Shown here in pieces: positions 5,062-40,721 of a stretch of DNA of 64,000 nt. The notes beneath the pieces are model-generated. The model did not search any database and had not been told where the DNA came from. It saw nothing but the letters and a program-made list of their open reading frames with translations. The position numbers were made by a program, and so were the translations under genes. Within the stretch, counting starts at the first letter, position 1. Each line of letters opens with the position of its first letter. Source of the stretch: Bacteroidota bacterium (GTDB lineage: Bacteria; Bacteroidota; Ignavibacteria; Ignavibacteriales; Ignavibacteriaceae); NCBI GenBank assembly GCA_021824145.1, contig JAKALM010000011.1, positions 1 to 64,000 of the forward strand, given 5' to 3'.

Positions 5062-5418
5062 ATGAAAAAAATTTTATTTGTCTTTCTTTTTATCCCAATT
5101 TCGTTTCACTATTCACAAACAAAGATTGAAACAGATGTTGACTCAGCATTTCAAAATTCTAAAAAAGGAATTTACTGGGCTTTATCAAATATACCGGAGA
5201 AAAAGGCTAAATTGGAAAACGATCTTATAGTTGATGATAAACTTTTAGCATCCGTAAAATTGGATAAAGAAATAAATGGGATAAAAATCACGTCAGTTGG
5301 TTTTAATAATTCGAATGAAGTTACAATTAAGATTTTTAAATCATACGATAGTTTGTTAAAAGAGGGTTATTTAAAAAATTTAAAGAAGGTTGATAAGAAT
5401 TTTCTTGAAGAAAATTGA
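5062..5418 (+). CDS. small exported protein, unknown function
   Basis: An unrecognised protein of 118 residues. It starts with a clear Sec signal (MKKILFVFLFIPISF, ending near SQT), followed by a soluble, Lys/Asp-rich domain with predicted mixed alpha/beta character. I prefer the ATG at 5062 because AAAGGG sits 6-8 bases upstream and the signal peptide then begins properly; an upstream TTG at 5047 would add a charged leader. It converges with the Rrf2 gene with only 9 bases between the stop codons. Confidence 0.6.
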   Translation: MKKILFVFLFIPISFHYSQTKIETDVDSAFQNSKKGIYWALSNIPEKKAKLENDLIVDDKLLASVKLDKEINGIKITSVGFNNSNEVTIKIFKSYDSLLKEGYLKNLKKVDKNFLEEN

Positions 5419-5427
5419 ATTTAATTT

Positions 5428-5913
5428 TCAATTCAAAATTCTTCCAATTTGTTTTTCTATATTTGATGCAAAATTACTTGCAATAGAGCCTGTTTCAAAT
5501 TCAGTTCCGATTAGATCTTTTAATGTCATTTTACCTAAAACGCTATCTATTAAAGTCTGTATTGTTCTCCATAATGATCGAATTGAACAATCAATTGTGT
5601 GAGTACATATCAATTCGGATCCAGAATGGTCAGTGCAAAACCCATCTTCAAACAACCTTCCTCCTAATGCTGCAAGTACATCGCCAATAATTATTTTATC
5701 TGCAGGCCTCGTCAATTTATAACCGCCAGTCTGTCCGCGCGAGCTTTCAATAAATCCGCCAAGTCGCAAAGCTCTAAGAAGTTTGCCGGTATTGGCTTCG
5801 CTCAATCCTTCCATCTGGCTTATCTCTGGAATGGTAAGTCCGTTTGGCGAAATAGATTTGCCAATGCGGAGTAAACATCTTAAACCGTATTCTTCTTGTG
5901 TACTGAATTTCAT
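5428..5913 (-). CDS. Rrf2/IscR-type Fe-S cluster sensing transcriptional regulator
   Basis: This 161-residue protein has the Rrf2 winged-helix domain (about residues 1-85, with the wing RGQTGGYKLTRP) followed by a cysteine loop. Cys93, Cys103 and Cys109 give spacing C-x9-C-x5-C, compared with C-x5-C-x5-C in E. coli IscR. By family knowledge it binds a [2Fe-2S] cluster and reports cluster supply. It is the last gene of the SUF block, 82 bases after the bacilliredoxin gene, and most likely represses the SUF operon. Having the regulator at the distal end means that its own level would depend on read-through from sufB or on an internal promoter. Confidence 0.88.
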   Translation of the reverse strand: MKFSTQEEYGLRCLLRIGKSISPNGLTIPEISQMEGLSEANTGKLLRALRLGGFIESSRGQTGGYKLTRPADKIIIGDVLAALGGRLFEDGFCTDHSGSELICTHTIDCSIRSLWRTIQTLIDSVLGKMTLKDLIGTEFETGSIASNFASNIEKQIGRILN

Positions 5914-10870: not shown

Positions 10871-12316
10871 TTATCCAACACTTCCTTCTAAACTTACACT
10901 TAATAATTTTTGCGCTTCAACTGCAAATTCCATTGGAAGCTCTTTAAATACTTCTTTGCAATATCCATTTACAATCAGATTAACTGCATCTTCACGGGAA
11001 ATTCCTCGCTGGTTTAGATAGAAAATCTGATCTTCACCTATTTTTGAAGTAGTTGCTTCATGTTCCATTTGCGCGGTAGGATTGTTTATTTCTAGATAAG
11101 GGAAGGTATGAGCGCCACATTTATCGCCGATTAAAAGAGAATCGCATTGAGAGAAGTTGCGAGCGTTGTCTGCTTTCTTAATTATCTTTACTTGTCCGCG
11201 ATAACTATTATTGCTTTTACCGGCAGAAATTCCTTTCGAAACAATTGTGCTTCTCGTATTCTTTCCCATGTGAATCATCTTTGTGCCTGTGTCAGCCTGC
11301 TGATAATTATTTGTAACTGCAACAGAATAAAACTCACCAATAGAATTATCACCAATTAAAAGGCAGCTTGGATATTTCCATGTAATTGCCGAACCAGTTT
11401 CTACCTGAGTCCAAGAAATTTTTGAATTAACTCCTTTACACATTCCGCGTTTAGTAACAAAATTGTAAATGCCGCCTTTGCCGTTTTTATCTCCAGGATA
11501 CCAATTTTGAACAGTTGAATATTTTACAGTGGCATTATCAAGCGCAACTAATTCAACAACTGCTGCATGAAGCTGATTTTCATCGCGCATTGGAGCAGTG
11601 CAACCTTCAAGATAGCTTACGTAAGCGCCTTCGTCAGCAACTATAAGTGTCCTTTCAAATTGCCCTGTGTTTGCAGCATTAATTCTAAAATAAGTTGAAA
11701 GTTCCATTGGGCAACGAACGCCTTTGGGAATGTAAGCAAAAGATCCGTCACTGAATACGGCAGAATTAAGAGCAGCAAAAAAATTATCGGTACTTGGAAC
11801 AACACTTCCTAGATACTGTTTGACAAGGGTAGGATGATTTTTTATTGCTTCAGACATTGAACAAAAAATAATTCCCAGTTCGGCAAGTTTTTCCTTAAAT
11901 GTGGTTGCAACTGAAACACTATCAAAAACGGCATCCACCGCAACACCTGCAAAAATTTTTTGTTCTTCAAGAGATATTCCTAGCTTTTGATAAGTTTTAA
12001 TTAATTCGGGGTCAGCTTCCTCTAAACTATTTAGCTTAGGTTTTTTCTTTGGGGCTGAGTAATAAGAAATATCCTGATAATCAATTGGTTCATAATGTAT
12101 ATTTGCCCAATTAGGTTCTTTCATAGTAAGCCAATGTCGATAAGCCTTTAGCCGCCATTCCAGCATAAACTCGGGTTCTTCTTTTATAGCAGAAAGCCGA
12201 CGGATAATATCTTCGTTCAATCCTTTTGGAAAAGTTTCAGCTTCAACATTGCTTACAAATCCATATTTATATTCTTTATTTGCTAACTCTTCAATTTGAT
12301 TAACTTCAGTACTCAT
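10871..12316 (-). CDS. sufB: SufB Fe-S cluster scaffold subunit
   Basis: The main scaffold on which SUF clusters are built. The 481-residue protein carries the expected family segments: [13 protein letters not shown] near the N-terminus, [48 protein letters not shown] and the C-terminal FPYLEINN with [13 protein letters not shown]. The conserved Cys in [10 protein letters not shown] is the expected cluster-region residue. It is the first gene of the minus-strand SUF operon; the 269-base gap upstream is shared with the divergent polysaccharide locus. Confidence 0.97.
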
Positions 12317-33266: not shown

Positions 33267-33476
33267 CTACATTCTCCTCTTAACATCATTACGAATTAGA
33301 GATCATATAATTCAATTCGAAAGTAAACTTTTATAAAATTAAGAGCAAATATCGTACTAATTTTAACTATACAAATAGACGCAATTAACATCAAAACATC
33401 AAAGCAATTGTATTTGGTTTTTCTTATTTTCGTATACAAAAATTAGTTTATGAATATTTTTTCAAAGGGTTTTAAA

Positions 33477-35738
33477 ATGACTGCTAATATTGAAATGATA
33501 AAAAAAGTTTACTCCGACTATAAAGGAAAAGTTGCTGCGGCAAAAAAAATATTAAATAGGCAAATGACTTATGCCGAAAAAGTATTATACACTCACCTGT
33601 GGGAATCTCCTAAAGCGGAATTAAAAAAAGGAAAAGATTATTCTGAATTAGCTCCGGATCGCGTTGCAATGCAGGATGCAACCGCACAAATGGCGCTTCT
33701 TCAATTTATGTCTGCCGGCAGAAAAACAACCGCTGTTCCGTCAACTGTTCATTGCGATCATTTAATTCAAGCTCAAGTTGGCGCAAAAGATGATTTGCTA
33801 AGAGCAACTTCTGAAAACAAAGAAGTTTACGATTTCCTCGAAAGTATTTCTAAAAAATACGGAATTGGATTCTGGAAACCTGGCGCTGGAATTATTCATC
33901 AAGTAGTTTTAGAAAATTATGCTTTCCCCGGCGGAATGATGATTGGAACTGATTCTCACACACCAAACGCTGGTGGATTGGGAATGATTGCAATCGGCGT
34001 TGGCGGCGCTGATGCTGTTGATGTTATGGCTGGAATGCCGTGGGAATTAAAATGGCCGAAACTCATTGGCGTAAAATTGACCGGTAAATTAAATGGCTGG
34101 GCTTCTGCAAAAGATGTTATTTTGAAGTTAGCAGGAATTTTAACTGTTAAAGGCGGAACCGGCGCAATTGTTGAATATTTTGGTGAAGGTGTAACTTCAA
34201 TTTCTTGCACCGGTAAAGGAACAATTTGCAACATGGGTGCGGAGATTGGAGCAACAACTTCAATCTTTCCTTTTGATGAACGAATGGCTGCTTATTTAAG
34301 AATTACAAATCGTGCTGATGTTGCGGCTCTTTGCGAAGGCCTTGCTGACGATTTAACAGCAGATAAAGAAGTTTATCAAAATCCTGAAAAATATTTTGAT
34401 CAGGTAATTGAAATTAATTTAAGTGAACTTGAACCTCATCTTAATGGTCCGTTTACTCCTGATAAAGCTTGGCCCATTTCTAAAATGAAAGAAGCAATTA
34501 AAGAAAATAATTATCCTGAAGAATTAAAAGTTGGACTTATCGGAAGCTGTACAAATTCAAGCTATGAAGATATCGACCGCTCCGCAAGCATTGCAAAGCA
34601 GGCTCTTGCAAAAGGATTGAAAGCAAAATCTCAATTCACAATTACTCCTGGCTCAGAACAAGTAAGAGCAACAATTGAACGCGACGGACAGCTTGAAACA
34701 TTAACTAAATTCGGCGGAACTATTCTTGCCAACGCTTGCGGTCCTTGCATCGGAATGTGGAAAAGAATGGATATAAAAACCGGAGAGAGAAATACAATCG
34801 TTACTTCCTTCAATAGAAATTTTGCAAAAAGAAACGACGGCAATCCAGATACTCTTGCTTTTGTTGCAAGTCCGGAATTAACAACTGCACTTGCAATTGC
34901 AGGCAGTATTTCTTTCAATCCTATTACCGATACTCTTGTGAATGATAAAGGAGAGAAAGTAAAACTGGATCCTCCTGTTGGCGAAGAACTTCCGTTGAAT
35001 GGATTTGATAAAGGTGAAGATGGTTTTGTTCCTCCCGCAGAAGATGGTTCAAGTGTTCAGGTAATTGTTGATCCGAAGAGTGATAGACTTCAATTGTTAA
35101 AACCATTCGAACCTTGGAACGGAAAAGATTATGTTGATTTACCTGTTCTTCTAAAAGCAAAAGGTAAATGCACAACCGATCATATTTCTATGGCAGGGCC
35201 GTGGTTAAAGTATAGAGGTCATCTCGATAATATTTCGAACAACATGTTTATCGGCGCTATAAATGCTTTTACAGGCGATGCAGGAAAAGTTAAAAATGTT
35301 TTTACGGGTGAATATAAATCAATTCCTGAAGTTGCACGCGAATACAAAGCTAAAGGAACCGGCTGGATTGTTGTAGGTGATGAAAACTATGGCGAAGGTT
35401 CAAGCCGCGAACATGCCGCAATGGAACCAAGATTTCTTGGCGGCAAGGCAATCATCGTTAAAAGCTTTGCAAGAATTCACGAAACAAATTTGAAGAAGCA
35501 GGGAATGCTTCCTTTAACATTTGCTAATCCTGTTGACTATGAAAAAATTCAAGAAGATGATAAGCTAAGTATAATTGGTTTAACCTCACTCGCACCTGAA
35601 AAACAATTAACGCTTGTCATAAAACATAAAGACGGCAAAGAAGAAAAAGCAGTGCTTAACCATACATTTAACGATGCACAAATAAAATGGTTCAAAGCCG
35701 GCAGCGCGCTTAACTTGATTGCGCAAGCTAATAAATGA
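33477..35738 (+). CDS. acn: aconitate hydratase, mitochondrial-type aconitase
   Basis: A TCA-cycle enzyme with a [4Fe-4S] cluster that converts citrate to isocitrate. Of the three ligand cysteines, one is in [11 protein letters not shown] and two are in [31 protein letters not shown] and [14 protein letters not shown] are also diagnostic. I place the start at 33477 because AAAGGG lies 8 bases upstream; an ATG at 33450 would add nine residues. The length of 753 residues fits the mitochondrial-type group rather than AcnB. It is transcribed alone, with a terminator directly after it. Confidence 0.95.
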
Positions 35739-35958: not shown

Positions 35959-36717
35959 ATGGGAACTCCAAAAGCATTTAATTATTCTGCATTCGATACA
36001 CTCACAGCATGTGAAACTATTGTAGAACAATGTATCATCGATAAAACAGAAATCATTAAGAAAAGGCCTGGCTGGGCTGATCCTTACTTCCCCGATTTAC
36101 TTACCAAAATTCAAGATGCTTATAGCAAACACCTTCATATATATAACGCAAAAGAATTAAAGGATGCAACAAAAGCCTTAAACTCAATTAAGGAGCCCGC
36201 TAAAAACGATCTCTCATCTTTTAACATTTAGTTAAAAAATGATTTTAAAGATAATAAAACCAGATTAAGCGAAATAAAAAATACTCTTGGTCTTACTGCT
36301 TATTATTCTAAAGCATCCACAGGTGTACAGTCTGCTATACTTAACTTACTTTATCAATTTAAAAATAATATGACTGATGAGCTTGCGGCAGAAATAAATG
36401 CAAAGGGAATGGACCCGCTTTTAATTCCAAATTTAAAAGGCTATGCCGATACACTTAAAGCCGCTAATGTTACACAGGGATCCGCTAAGAAGAACAGGCC
36501 AAAAATTTCTGAAGCATCTATAATTGCGCTTAATGAAATTTATAATAGCGTTATCAGCATTTGCGAAATATGCCGTAACATATTTAAGAGCGATCCTGTA
36601 AAGAGCGACATGTATTCATTCACTAAAACTGTAGAAGCGTTGGGAAATAATAATGGCGGGAATAATGAAGGCGGAGACCAAAATCAAACACCGTCAACTC
36701 CTCCGCCAGTTCAATAA
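35959..36717 (+). pseudogene. helical protein gene interrupted by one in-frame amber codon
   Basis: Two open segments, 35959-36231 (90 residues) and 36370-36717 (115 residues from its first ATG), are in the same frame. The bases between them (36232-36369) are also open, so only TAG at 36229-36231 separates them; without it the product would be 252 residues. The text runs smoothly through the stop (...SSFNI-stop-LKNDFKDNK...), with amphipathic helices on both sides and a Gly/Asn/Gln/Pro-rich tail. The ATG at 36370 has no ribosome site, whereas 35959 has AAAGGG upstream. The function is not recognised. A nonsense mutation (for example CAG to TAG) or a sequencing error are the simplest readings. 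Confidence 0.75.
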
Positions 36718-36776: not shown

Positions 36777-38084
36777 ATGAAAATGAAATTATTTACATTA
36801 ATTTTATTGTATCTAACTTTATATAACTCACTTATTTATTCCCAGTGGATACGTCAAACTAATGGTTTACCATCCCATTGGAGCAATGTTTCTTCTATAG
36901 ACGCATGCGATAACTCTACTGCTGTGATAGCCGTTGACAATCTAATATATAAAACCGAAAATGCAGGGAATACTTGGACAAAAATTTCATACCCTTCGTA
37001 CCAGGGTGTTGATGTATCTATAATTGATAAAAACCACTTTTGGATTTGTACCGGAAACGGTAAAATACTTGCAACCTCAGATGGAGGTACATCTTGGTCT
37101 GTGCAGTTTTATGATACTGCAAAAACAACATTCATTGATTATTTAAAAATGTTTGACTTGAACAACGGTATTGCAATTGGAGATGCTGTAGGAAATAGTC
37201 CGGCTTCAATCTTATCTACTACAAATGGCGGCACCTATTGGGTCTCAATAAGCGATACCCTTTTTAAAGCTGGTTTTTCAGGTGATGTTTGGAGGCGAAT
37301 TAGTTTCATTAATTCGAATACTGGTTATTTCTATATTTCCGGCATAGCTCCAAACCAACAATTATATAAAACAACAAATGGTAGTAAAAATTGGGCTCTA
37401 ACAAATTATCCCAATTCGGATTGCGATTTAATCAAATTCTATAATGAAAATATTGGATTGGTAGCTTTCATGCAGACGCCGCTTCCAAACCTTAAATATG
37501 GTATTAGCAGAACTACTGATGGAGGAAATTCTTGGGAAACATTTAATATTGCTTCAACTGGTTACCCAGACGATTTTGAATTTATCCCCGGCAATCCTTC
37601 CAAAGTTTGGTATGTAAATTTGGAAAGTTTGTATTACAGCAAGGACACCGGAAGAACATGGACTGAACAAAAAATTTATAATGGACAATTATGGGGAAGG
37701 GACTTAGTGTTTACAGACAGCACACACGGTTGGCTTATCTGCGACAGCGGCAAAGTATTTTATACTTCTAATAACGGCGGGGTTATAGCAGATATTTCAT
37801 CTAACGGATTTCAAATGCCAAAAGAATATTTGTTGATGCAGAATTATCCTAATCCCTTCAATCCATCCACAACAATTTCTTATAAACTAAAAGAAACTGG
37901 TCATGTAGTATTAACTGTCTTCGATATTATGGGAAGAGAAATTGCACAGCTTATTAACGGCATGCAGACTGCTGGAGAGCATACTGTTAATTTTGAAGGA
38001 GCTAATCTTCCAAGCGGTATGTATATCTACCAATTAAAAGCCAGCGGTTACATTTCTTCAAGAAAAATGCTGCTACTTAAATAG
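36777..38084 (+). CDS. secreted YCF48/BNR-type propeller protein with T9SS sorting domain
   Basis: The 435-residue protein has a signal peptide (about 1-22), several sialidase-like repeats of the form TxDGGxSW (TENAGNTWTK, TSDGGTSWSV, TTNGGTYWVS, TTDGGNSWET, SKDTGRTWTE), and a type A T9SS C-terminal domain from about residue 350. The latter has QNYPNPFNPSTTISY and ends SSRKMLLLK. It should be exported by Sec, moved across the outer membrane by T9SS and attached to the surface. A strong AAGGAGG site lies 5 bases upstream of the ATG. The propeller type resembles photosystem II assembly factor YCF48; the ligand is unknown. Confidence 0.92.
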   Translation: MKMKLFTLILLYLTLYNSLIYSQWIRQTNGLPSHWSNVSSIDACDNSTAVIAVDNLIYKTENAGNTWTKISYPSYQGVDVSIIDKNHFWICTGNGKILATSDGGTSWSVQFYDTAKTTFIDYLKMFDLNNGIAIGDAVGNSPASILSTTNGGTYWVSISDTLFKAGFSGDVWRRISFINSNTGYFYISGIAPNQQLYKTTNGSKNWALTNYPNSDCDLIKFYNENIGLVAFMQTPLPNLKYGISRTTDGGNSWETFNIASTGYPDDFEFIPGNPSKVWYVNLESLYYSKDTGRTWTEQKIYNGQLWGRDLVFTDSTHGWLICDSGKVFYTSNNGGVIADISSNGFQMPKEYLLMQNYPNPFNPSTTISYKLKETGHVVLTVFDIMGREIAQLINGMQTAGEHTVNFEGANLPSGMYIYQLKASGYISSRKMLLLK

Positions 38085-38095
38085 TATCTTTGTAG

Positions 38096-38115
38096 AGACG
38101 CATCGCGATGCGTCT
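38096..38115. repeat. 20-base perfect palindrome after the T9SS gene
   Basis: AGACGCATCGCGATGCGTCT is self-complementary over its full length, G/C-rich against its AT-rich surroundings, and lies 11 bases after the stop codon. It may form the terminator of the T9SS gene (TTTA follows). Its sharp composition contrast suggests a dispersed palindromic element, but only this copy is seen in the window. Confidence 0.6.
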
Positions 38116-38116
38116 T

Positions 38117-38452
38117 TACTGTTTTAGAAACTTAAACAGTTAAATATATTAGTCCCCCCCGCAAGTAATAAAAGTCCTCTCGTATCTATTTTTAGACCGT
38201 CCGCATAAGTTATTTGTGCGTGAGTATCACAAAAAAGCTATTTCGTAATTGATAAAAGTCCTTAAGTTTAAATTTCGTGTCCGTTCGCAGATTATAAAAG
38301 TGCGGACGCATCACATAATAGTCCGTTAGTTGTTTGTTTTAATCCGGTAGTTAAAGAGTTGAGTTACTCCGCATGTTCTACAAATGCGTTCGAATCACAA
38401 AATACCCAATCAGTTAATTACGTTAATCCGGTAGTTTCAATTCACACTTTAA
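38117..38452. repeat. degenerate tandem repeat with 84-base period
   Basis: Three units start at 38201, 38285 and 38369, exactly 84 bases apart. Each has CGCA, eleven bases, TGCG, then six or seven variable bases and ATCACA (TATCACA, CATCACA, AATCACA). The second half also recurs at the same period: TAAAAGTCCT at 38169 and 38253, and TTAATCCGGTAGTT at 38339 and 38423. The second half at 38169 implies a fourth, more decayed unit upstream. No reading frame runs through the array. With the palindrome before it and featureless sequence after it, it fills most of the 489-base gap between the T9SS and BatA-like genes. Confidence 0.65.
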
Positions 38453-38573
38453 CACCTTTCCTTATACCCTATACCTCTATACCTCATACTCAAATAACAG
38501 CTTACTAATTTTCCTAATTTGCTATTTGAAGAACTGTCTTGATTTTATAGCGTGCTAAGGATAAGTTTGAACA

Positions 38574-40721
38574 ATGATTTTCTTAAACCCTGCTGTATTA
38601 TTTGGACTATTAGCCGCGTCAATTCCGGTTTTAATTCATCTTTTGAATTTAAGGAAGCTGAAACGTATTGAATTCAGTACGCTCGCTTTTCTTAAAGAGC
38701 TTCAGAAGAATAAAATACGGAAGATTAAGCTGAAGCAATGGCTGCTGCTTGCTTTAAGAATTTTAATAATTCTTTTTCTGGTTACTGCTTTTGCGCGTCC
38801 CACTTTAAAAGGAGTTGCAATCGGAGGAACAACTTCGGCAGCAAAAACTACTGCCGTGTTCATTCTAGATAATACTCCGAGCATGTCCGTTGTTGATGCG
38901 AAAGGTTCTTATTTCAATCAAGCTAAGGCAGCAATTAAAGAATTGCTTACTCAGCTTCAGGAAGGCGATGATGCAGCTTTAGTTTTAGTTTCAGATCAGA
39001 GTAATGATGAAATTAAAACCACAACTAACTTATTAGATTTCCAAAAACAAATTGATGAATCAAAAATTTCCGATGCAAACGGGTACCTGAACAGCGCAAT
39101 AATAAAAGCTGCAAAAATTGTTTCGAAGTCCCAAAACTTTAATAAAGAAATTTATATCCTTTCCGATTTTCAGCAGGGAAGATTAGCAGATAAGGGTTCA
39201 CTCTCAGATCTCAGCCAATTGTTGAATGATAAAGTTAGAATTTATTCTTTTGATTTTGCCGGCAAAGATGTTTTTAATATCGGCATTGATGATTTAAAAT
39301 TGAATACACAAATATTTGAAACTGATAAACCGGTCGATTTTGCCGCGACAGTTACAAATTATTCTTCTCAGTCTGTCAGCAATCTTGTTGTTTCGCTTTT
39401 TATAAATGGCGAAAGAAGCGCACAGCAAAGTGTTTCGCTAAATGCCGGTGAAAGTAAAATAGTTTCATTAGAAGCTCCGGTAAACGCAACCGGCTATATT
39501 GATGCTTTTACAGAAATTGAAGATGATGAAATTTTGCAGGACAATAAAAGATTTGTAGATTTTTATATTCCCAAAGAAATTCCGGTTCTTATTTTAACTG
39601 ACGATCCTTCCGATTCGCGTTTTGTTAATTTTTCTCTGACTGCCGCAAACTCTTCAAACGGAAATGATGGCGGTTCATTAAAAATTACTCAAAGAAATTT
39701 ATCAGAAGTTGGAAGTATAAATTTATCTCAGTACGATGTTATTGCAATCATCGGATCAGAAAATTTCTCCGGCGGATTAGATCGATTAAATTCTTTTGTT
39801 GATAACGGCGGAGGAATTCTTATTATGCCGGGCTCTAAATCAACTTTGCAGAATTTTCAGAAGCTGACAACTGGATTAAATATTCCATCACCAGTTGGCA
39901 CCGTTGGCAGCATTAATTCAACTGCAAATGAATTTAAATTTGATAAAGTTGATTTCAACCATCCGGTTTTCCAGGATATTTTTACAAATAAAGAAAAGAA
40001 GAATGTCGAGTCGCCTTCAATTTATTATTACTTCAAAATAAATCCGCAAGGCAAAGGAGAAAATATTATTTCACTTGTTGATGGTTCATCTTTCTTAAGC
40101 GAATATAAATTAGGGAAGGGAAAAATATTTTTGTTCAACACAGCGCCTGTGCTTAGCTGGAGCAGCTTTCCGGTAAAAAGCATTTTTGCTCCTTTGATGA
40201 ACAAATCAATTTATTATCTTGCATCAAAAGATCAATCAGCGAATAATTATCTTGCCGGCAGCACGGTGCTTATTGATCTGAAGAATAATACTTCGCCACA
40301 AATTAAGATTGTAAGGCCGGATAAATCAGAAGATTATGTTAATCTTCAAGATCAGCCGGATAAAAATTTTTATGAATATAAAAGAACAGACCTCGTGGGC
40401 AATTATAAAGTTTATTCTGGCTCCGGAACTTCTAAGAATCAAAAAGGTTTAATTAATGAGTTCTCAGTAAATGAAGATCCGTTGGAATCGGTGACAAAAT
40501 ATCTTTCAATAAATGACTTTGAAAATTATTTGAAGCAAATTAATTTCAAAGGAAAATTTATTAATGTAAATAAGAATGAAGACCCAGCAAAAGTTGTTAT
40601 GCAGTCAAGATTTGGTTCAGAGCTTTGGAGATATTTTTTACTAATAGCAATTTTATTAGCGCTAGTGGAAATGGCAGTTGCAAGAAATGCAAAGAAAGAA
40701 TTAGTTGAAACAACAAAATAA
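38574..40721 (+). CDS. BatA-type membrane protein with von Willebrand A domain
   Basis: The 715-residue protein starts with the BatA N-terminal double-membrane-helix domain: FLNPAVLFGLLAASIPVLIHLLNLRK, then LKQWLLLALRILIILFLV. A vWA domain follows (about 90-235) with the metal site AVFILDNTPSMS, where Thr replaces the first Ser of DxSxS. The large remaining part (to about 685) is periplasmic and includes a GATase-like segment (DVIAIIGSENF, GGGILIMPG). A last helix near the C-terminus ends the protein. Bat proteins are linked to aerotolerance and MoxR complexes, but their exact role is unsettled. The usual MoxR and DUF58 partners are not adjacent. Confidence 0.87.
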   Translation: MIFLNPAVLFGLLAASIPVLIHLLNLRKLKRIEFSTLAFLKELQKNKIRKIKLKQWLLLALRILIILFLVTAFARPTLKGVAIGGTTSAAKTTAVFILDNTPSMSVVDAKGSYFNQAKAAIKELLTQLQEGDDAALVLVSDQSNDEIKTTTNLLDFQKQIDESKISDANGYLNSAIIKAAKIVSKSQNFNKEIYILSDFQQGRLADKGSLSDLSQLLNDKVRIYSFDFAGKDVFNIGIDDLKLNTQIFETDKPVDFAATVTNYSSQSVSNLVVSLFINGERSAQQSVSLNAGESKIVSLEAPVNATGYIDAFTEIEDDEILQDNKRFVDFYIPKEIPVLILTDDPSDSRFVNFSLTAANSSNGNDGGSLKITQRNLSEVGSINLSQYDVIAIIGSENFSGGLDRLNSFVDNGGGILIMPGSKSTLQNFQKLTTGLNIPSPVGTVGSINSTANEFKFDKVDFNHPVFQDIFTNKEKKNVESPSIYYYFKINPQGKGENIISLVDGSSFLSEYKLGKGKIFLFNTAPVLSWSSFPVKSIFAPLMNKSIYYLASKDQSANNYLAGSTVLIDLKNNTSPQIKIVRPDKSEDYVNLQDQPDKNFYEYKRTDLVGNYKVYSGSGTSKNQKGLINEFSVNEDPLESVTKYLSINDFENYLKQINFKGKFINVNKNEDPAKVVMQSRFGSELWRYFLLIAILLALVEMAVARNAKKELVETTK

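Follow-up and report, generated by a model that had tools for sequence, protein, structure and literature searches.

The iterons of plasmid origins and the centromere-like repeats of par sites are direct repeats about 20 bp apart that lie beside the gene of a dedicated protein. In the type III toxin-antitoxin systems (ToxIN, CptIN and TenpIN), a tandem array with locus-specific repeats is located just upstream of one gene; the units, about 35-50 nt long, are structured, and a terminator is found before the toxin gene. The nearest published case in the literature searched is that of the TAACTGA heptamer direct repeats, which, according to MacGregor (2015, PMC4679880), are intergenic, lie in many instances just upstream of start codons, and occur in Beggiatoaceae, cyanobacteria and some Bacteroidetes. 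A literature search of incomplete coverage, such that a description may be in print elsewhere, brought up no case of a 21-nt array linked to a helical protein, and the putative two-part system presented below may be undescribed.

The array in the window and its copies in relatives

The array was found in the window, by which we mean the whole 64-kb stretch of DNA that was analysed, within an intergenic stretch of 489 nt that extends from a secreted-protein gene (36777-38084) to a BatA-like gene (38574-40721). The features of the locus are as follows.

33450-35738, + strand: host gene on the left of the insert, which we take to be an aconitase-like gene
35959-36717, + strand: partner gene, 89% identical in amino acids to the intact 250-aa protein on contig C27 of the same genome (G000), with one in-frame TAG at 36229
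36777-38084, + strand: gene of a YCF48/BNR-type protein that has a type IX secretion tail; separates the partner gene from the array
about 38159-38452, + strand: non-coding array of period 21 nt with about 14 (13-14) degenerate units, delimited by unit profiles in strict register; right-hand part of the element
38197-38280, + strand: first 84-nt super-unit (4 x 21), with CGCA-N11-TGCG and ATCACA
38281-38364, + strand: second 84-nt super-unit
38365-38448, + strand: third 84-nt super-unit
38515-38573, + strand: conserved BatA upstream region, right border of the insert, 52 of 59 positions identical in G012
38574-40721, + strand: BatA-like VWA protein gene, host gene on the right of the insert, outside the element

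In the preliminary description, the repeat was given an exact period of 84 bases and a start at 38117. The basic period is instead 21 nt, as self-match peaks were obtained at lags 21, 42, 63, 84, 105, 126, 147 and 168, and the 84 nt represent a super-period of 4 x 21. The periodicity at lag 84 is nevertheless real: the self-match there was 0.53, compared with 0.27 ± 0.03 in 500 dinucleotide shuffles, the maximum reached by any of these shuffles at any lag from 10 to 169 being 0.41. Positions 38117-38158 scored negative against the unit profile and lie outside the array. Repeat sequence is indeed present where a fourth half-unit had been placed upstream, but it consists of two more 21-nt units in register. 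The three CGCA-N11-TGCG pairs were found 84 nt apart, at 38202, 38286 and 38370, each one base higher than first given; elsewhere in the window this pair occurs only at 11143. The array was not reported by TRF at a minimum score of 30, being too degenerate for this program, so that ladders of this kind are easily overlooked. As had been claimed, it is not translated: it is overlapped by no ORF of at least 50 aa, and each of the six frames contains 4-12 stops.

Two neighbouring sequences were also observed. A short repeat of 7-8 nt (TATACCTC) directly follows the array at 38463-38489, and a hairpin-like inverted repeat is located at 38092-38119, after the stop codon of the gene that precedes the array. 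Similar post-stop inverted repeats, with a different sequence each time, can be observed in the C27 copy (L036, about 2334-2363) and in G012 and G008; perhaps these are REP-like elements or terminators.

The aconitase-like gene directly adjoins BatA in G001, G002, G003 and G005, and the lineage of the window thus carries an insert. A DNA search with the window array, covering 59 genomes including its own, identified one strong copy outside the own genome, at the same place in the congener G012, together with three other outside matches of 29-35 nt; with the same query, no match was obtained among phages. A third copy at the same place, in the congener G008, was found through searches with the flanking genes. 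Relatives therefore do hold copies, whose lack had been named as evidence against the repeat. Additionally, a sequence model of the 84-mer, applied to 13 genomes of the genus, identified the three known loci and a diverged array on C27 of the own genome. The latter follows a paralogous gene pair, of which one member encodes the intact 250-aa protein and the other a type IX secreted protein; the gene of the secreted protein is the paralogue, at the equivalent place, of the YCF48/BNR-type gene of the window.

The eight 84-mers from the three genomes (own, G012 and G008) align without gaps. Of the ATCACA that had been described as conserved after each pair, the ATC..A part is invariant in these eight sequences. 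Between G000 and G012, 204 of the 246 array positions are identical (83%), with 42 substitutions and no indel, compared with 108 of 163 (66%) at the four-fold sites of BatA. The remaining intergenic sequence of the two genomes can hardly be aligned (27/74, 25/52 and 29/68 identical), with the exception of the BatA upstream region (52/59). The window copy of the array is thus under constraint. The locus as such is probably decaying, with a TAG in the partner gene and an array that is still conserved.

The partner protein family and its arrays

Homologues of the partner protein were found in 13 of 80 genomes of the family (45 places), 21 of 164 of the order (at least 69 places) and 22 of 395 of the phylum (at least 58 places). 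These genome sets overlap and amount to about 119 distinct places, and the copy numbers are lower bounds, candidates having been scored only in part in many genomes of the order and phylum surveys. The family is multi-copy and patchily distributed. Full-length homologues mostly comprise 230-250 aa (~240), many of them with a Gly/Pro-rich tail, and a structure model built from seven sequences (mean pLDDT 82, pTM 0.50) is all-helical apart from a disordered tail. The protein core is about neutral, with a median pI of 7.6 over 36 proteins.

No match above the curated cut-offs was obtained for 19 homologues scanned with Pfam and for one scanned with NCBIfam, and PADLOC gave no match for four. The sub-cut-off Pfam matches (CCDC28, E 6e-4, in L100; DUF6776, 2e-3, in L116) were taken as chance. 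Seven homologues scanned with PHROGs gave weak matches only, the best of which, to replication-initiation, was obtained for one of the seven proteins (E 0.004). In a Foldseek search of the PDB nothing convincing was found (best E 0.21), and the best VIA-align hit, a LemA protein (Z 10.2 over 120 residues), is below the level at which this tool is telling for helical bundles; a known DNA-binding fold was found by neither search. No resemblance to recombinases or transposases was seen among the homologues scanned, and no match was obtained in plasmids (one protein query) or viral contigs (one alignment query).

A periodicity scan was performed at 78 of the about 119 homologue places. An array of period 21 was detected at 58 of them (33 of the 45 in family genomes and 25 of the other 33), L116, with its array 3.1 kb away, and the AT-rich L199 being doubtful members of the 58; 20 were negative by the criterion of the scan. 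With identical settings and limits of ±1.5 kb, arrays were found at 53 of the 78 homologue loci vs none of 29 matched BatA loci from across the phylum (Fisher, 2e-11). Among further controls, none of 8 BatA loci from the genus had an array, whereas one was detected at 1 of 5 DUF6261 loci and in 3 of 20 stretches of 8 kb taken at random; one of these three (L144) contains mainly 14-nt repeats. The array is therefore associated with the protein across the phylum. Where the gene is full-length and uninterrupted, an array is present at 54 of 66 loci (counting L098 and L161, just under the criterion); where it is truncated or interrupted, at 6 of 12, the window among them. At three congener loci (L058, L062 and L063) the partner gene is truncated and the array is absent too, as if the two were decaying together.

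In 624 kb, made up of the window and random stretches and scanned at periods 15-30, arrays were found at period 21 only. There were five, namely that of the window and four at loci without a homologue, where an HMM search gave matches at noise level. The 21-nt ladder is thus not exclusive to this protein family. Outside that range of periods, a 42-nt repeat was found in the random stretch L136 and a 14-nt repeat in L144. Arrays of 21 nt without a detectable homologue alongside can be observed in L140 (6576-6830), L137 (415-620) and L262 (near 16337). In L260, a 21-nt array near 5703 lies directly upstream of a gene for a 126-aa protein (5120-5497, - strand), which is unrelated to the main family, has a basic tail and matches nothing in Pfam; this case is a hint that ladders of this type are used by several small proteins. 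The 7- and 14-nt repeats of L144 (5849-6271) are upstream of an S23-like gene, presumably of the S23-type four-helix-bundle kind, and a similar-looking array occurs in L114 near 7145.

The properties of the ladders were analyzed in 57 arrays with 702 units. This set excludes L114, L186 and L199 and includes L098 and L161; in L114, the first scan had taken a heptamer array farther off, the 21-nt ladder being about 0.6 kb upstream of the gene, and L186 has a strong 42-nt ladder. Each array comprises 7-28 direct repeats. Upstream of the gene lie 49 of the 57, at a median distance of 169 nt (mostly 100-300 nt), and a terminator-like site is found between array and gene in 1 of 47 cases, where 0.7 are expected from shuffles. 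The eight downstream arrays belong to the subfamily closest to the window protein (36-90% identical) and are 0.1-4.8 kb from the gene. Other genes intervene in five of these eight cases: a gene for a type IX secreted protein in the window and on C27, and in the others a 351-aa protein, a set of HEPN/MNT, type IX secreted protein and BsuBI/PstI-type restriction-modification fusion, or that fusion alone. The fusions were observed at L056 (813-6016) and L061 (1145-5080), with HEPN/MNT genes also in the L056 interval.

The sequences of the arrays differ between loci and the period is constant, i.e. a fixed period is combined with a free sequence. Indels seem to be rare, in a count limited by a method that favours units in register, and 4 of the 57 arrays have shifted continuations at their ends. 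Base identity is lower at lags 5 and 16 and higher at 10-11. A modest helical phasing was detected in the purine/pyrimidine alphabet (power at 10.5 nt, z 3.2 over 34 non-redundant arrays), this value being the best of 18 cells (3 alphabets x 6 harmonics); the all-base power at 10.5 nt has a z of 1.9, and the signal is absent in the A+T and G+T alphabets of the 34 arrays and in the predicted roll. On the same strand, unit similarity loosely tracks protein identity (Mantel r 0.19; permutation sd 0.05, highest of 500 permutations 0.12), and in all 17 protein pairs of at least 60% identity it exceeds that on the opposite strand (means 0.495 and 0.366). The units of two pairs of proteins that are 64-70% identical (L160/L161 and L188/L201) are no more alike than those of unrelated pairs, which speaks against strict sequence recognition.

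The strict spacing and the conserved arms of the CGCA-N11-TGCG pair had initially been read as a sign of selection on a structure or on binding sites. Selection on the spacing and on binding-site-like repeats gained support, both from the window copy (83% vs 66% identity and no indel) and from the recurrence of the 21-nt period at 58 of 78 homologue loci. Selection on a hairpin between the two arms gained none: no two-sided change was found in the eight sequences, 2 of 32 cells being broken, and the unit consensuses of other arrays lack an excess of inverted symmetry (34 non-redundant consensuses, z -1.9). Folding of the window array as RNA also gave values close to chance (z -0.52 on one strand and -1.83 on the other), and that of 34 arrays was at chance (mean z -0.17 and -0.04, with 3 arrays on one strand and 2 on the other scoring below -2). 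The arms fall in neighbouring 21-nt units, and the pair appears incidental.

Several candidate identities were rejected. A palindromic operator gained no support, palindromes not being in excess. A CRISPR array does not agree with the head-to-tail degenerate units without spacers, and for a known structured RNA family the Rfam covariance search of the window gave no match at gathering and one sub-threshold match (E 0.66). A-tract or roll curvature gave no signal. The Bacteroidete-type promoter motif TAnnTTTG is less frequent than in shuffled sequence at each of three places, namely between array and gene (3 loci), before the array (3) and inside it (1).

Interpretation of the ladder

The constant spacing with free sequence, the rarity of indels and the weak helical phasing lead us to infer that duplex DNA is read at a two-turn spacing. 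Our preferred reading, held tentatively and at a probability approaching even, is that the ladder is a row of sites two DNA turns apart which would be bound as duplex by the neighbouring protein, within a recurrent two-part locus. Such a locus would comprise the gene of an all-helical protein of ~240 aa and a non-coding ladder in which 7-28 direct repeats follow one another every 21 nt. The ladder would act as double-stranded DNA in which each unit makes two B-DNA turns, and the neighbouring protein, or a partner of it, could load side by side on one face. Loaded copies might cooperate in forming a nucleoprotein filament or scaffold, the role of which would be either control of its own expression or the retention and silencing of a small cargo region. 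Several observations fit this reading less well, namely the 10.5-nt signal being the best of 18 cells and missing from the other alphabets and from roll, the about neutral core without a known DNA-binding fold, the dissimilar units of proteins 64-70% identical, the four of five arrays in 624 kb without a detectable homologue, the 20 of 78 negative homologue loci, and the downstream position, 0.1-4.8 kb off, in the closest subfamily.

If the array were instead part of a transcript, be it a leader of the gene or a separate RNA, the protein might bind single-stranded repeats every 21 nt, on the model of RNA-protein toxin-antitoxin loci or of an autoregulated leader. We consider this unlikely but serious, because most arrays (49 of 57, at a median of 169 nt) are upstream of the gene without an intervening terminator (1 of 47 intervals), so that a common transcript is possible; the orientation relative to the gene is also kept in 17 of 17 pairs. 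It is opposed by RNA structure not beyond chance, by the lack of an Rfam match at gathering, by the eight downstream arrays, some of which lie past other genes, and by a 10.5-nt phasing that would be unexpected for single strands. Mobility is suggested by the empty aconitase-BatA sites of four genomes and by the changing cargo that separates the array from the partner gene in the closest subfamily, and a multi-copy, patchy distribution agrees with it. Nonetheless, a mobile or exchangeable element with the gene at one end and the array at the other, in which the array would be a recombination or target platform and cargo would lie in between, seems improbable to us, given that the scanned homologues are unlike recombinases and transposases, that most arrays are just upstream of the gene with no cargo, and that plasmids, viral contigs and phages gave no match (single queries each).

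Higher-order periods (42, 63 and 84) would fit an unequal exchange of blocks, and arrays that turn over faster than the protein, some of them without a partner gene, would be expected of functionless slippage products tolerated in intergenic regions. Such neutral tandem duplication is already disfavoured, and we hold it to be very improbable, as 21 is the only period among 15-30 in 624 kb, the arrays are associated with one gene family, and the window locus shows substitutions without indels and conservation above that of four-fold sites. Since 21 nt equal seven codons, the arrays could also encode, or once have encoded, a heptad-repeat peptide. Open frames do exist in some of them (an 83-aa ORF in G012, and ORFs of 145 and 178 aa in L064 and L065), but a stop-free frame is found in 32 of 57 arrays vs 28.2 ± 3.3 with unit columns permuted, which is no excess, and with the 4-12 stops per frame of the window array this is the explanation to which we give the least credence.

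Returning to sites on duplex DNA, the wider claim would be that of a phylum-wide system in which DNA would be recognised by its 21-bp periodicity and not by a fixed motif, the reader being an all-helical protein of ~240 aa or the filament that it forms; we regard this as possible, at a probability somewhat below even. Ladders of this kind may be used by several small proteins that are unrelated to one another, the 126-aa protein of L260 being an example. That genes of a single protein family recurrently lie next to non-coding arrays with a single period, in many genera and at varied base composition, strongly indicates a function that awaits characterisation. Should the period alone count, DNA (or RNA) would here be recognised in a way for which the literature searched offers no example.

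Comparison with known systems

The loci resemble iterons and par sites in having direct repeats at a spacing of ~20 bp next to the gene of a dedicated protein. They differ from them in that the arrays are on long genome contigs, in many diverse copies per genome and with a free unit sequence, and in that the protein is all-helical, without a significant match to Rep, ParB or ParR. With the type III toxin-antitoxin systems they share an array just upstream of a single protein gene and repeats that vary between loci, whereas the 21-nt period, the 7-28 units, the absence of a fold signal and the chance level of terminators set them apart. For a ToxN-like endoribonuclease, no match was obtained in PADLOC (4 homologues) or above the Pfam cut-offs (19 homologues), and the fold searches with the all-helical model, whose pTM is 0.50, gave no clear one.

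DUF6261 (PF19775) is also a family of multi-copy proteins of ~240-250 aa, present in G050 and G174, which hold the present family as well. PF19775 was, however, matched by none of the 19 homologues scanned with Pfam and has no match in G000; identity of the two families is unsupported, the single array among the five DUF6261 loci being a weak one of 21 nt. Runs of TAACTGA were not found in the unit consensuses, and a 7-nt sub-period of that type was not found in the window array at lags 5-50. According to the accessible part of their description (PMC4679880), the TAACTGA repeats are one fixed 7-mer, and that part names no linked protein family; the ladders presented here have a period of 21 nt, a free sequence and a linked family.
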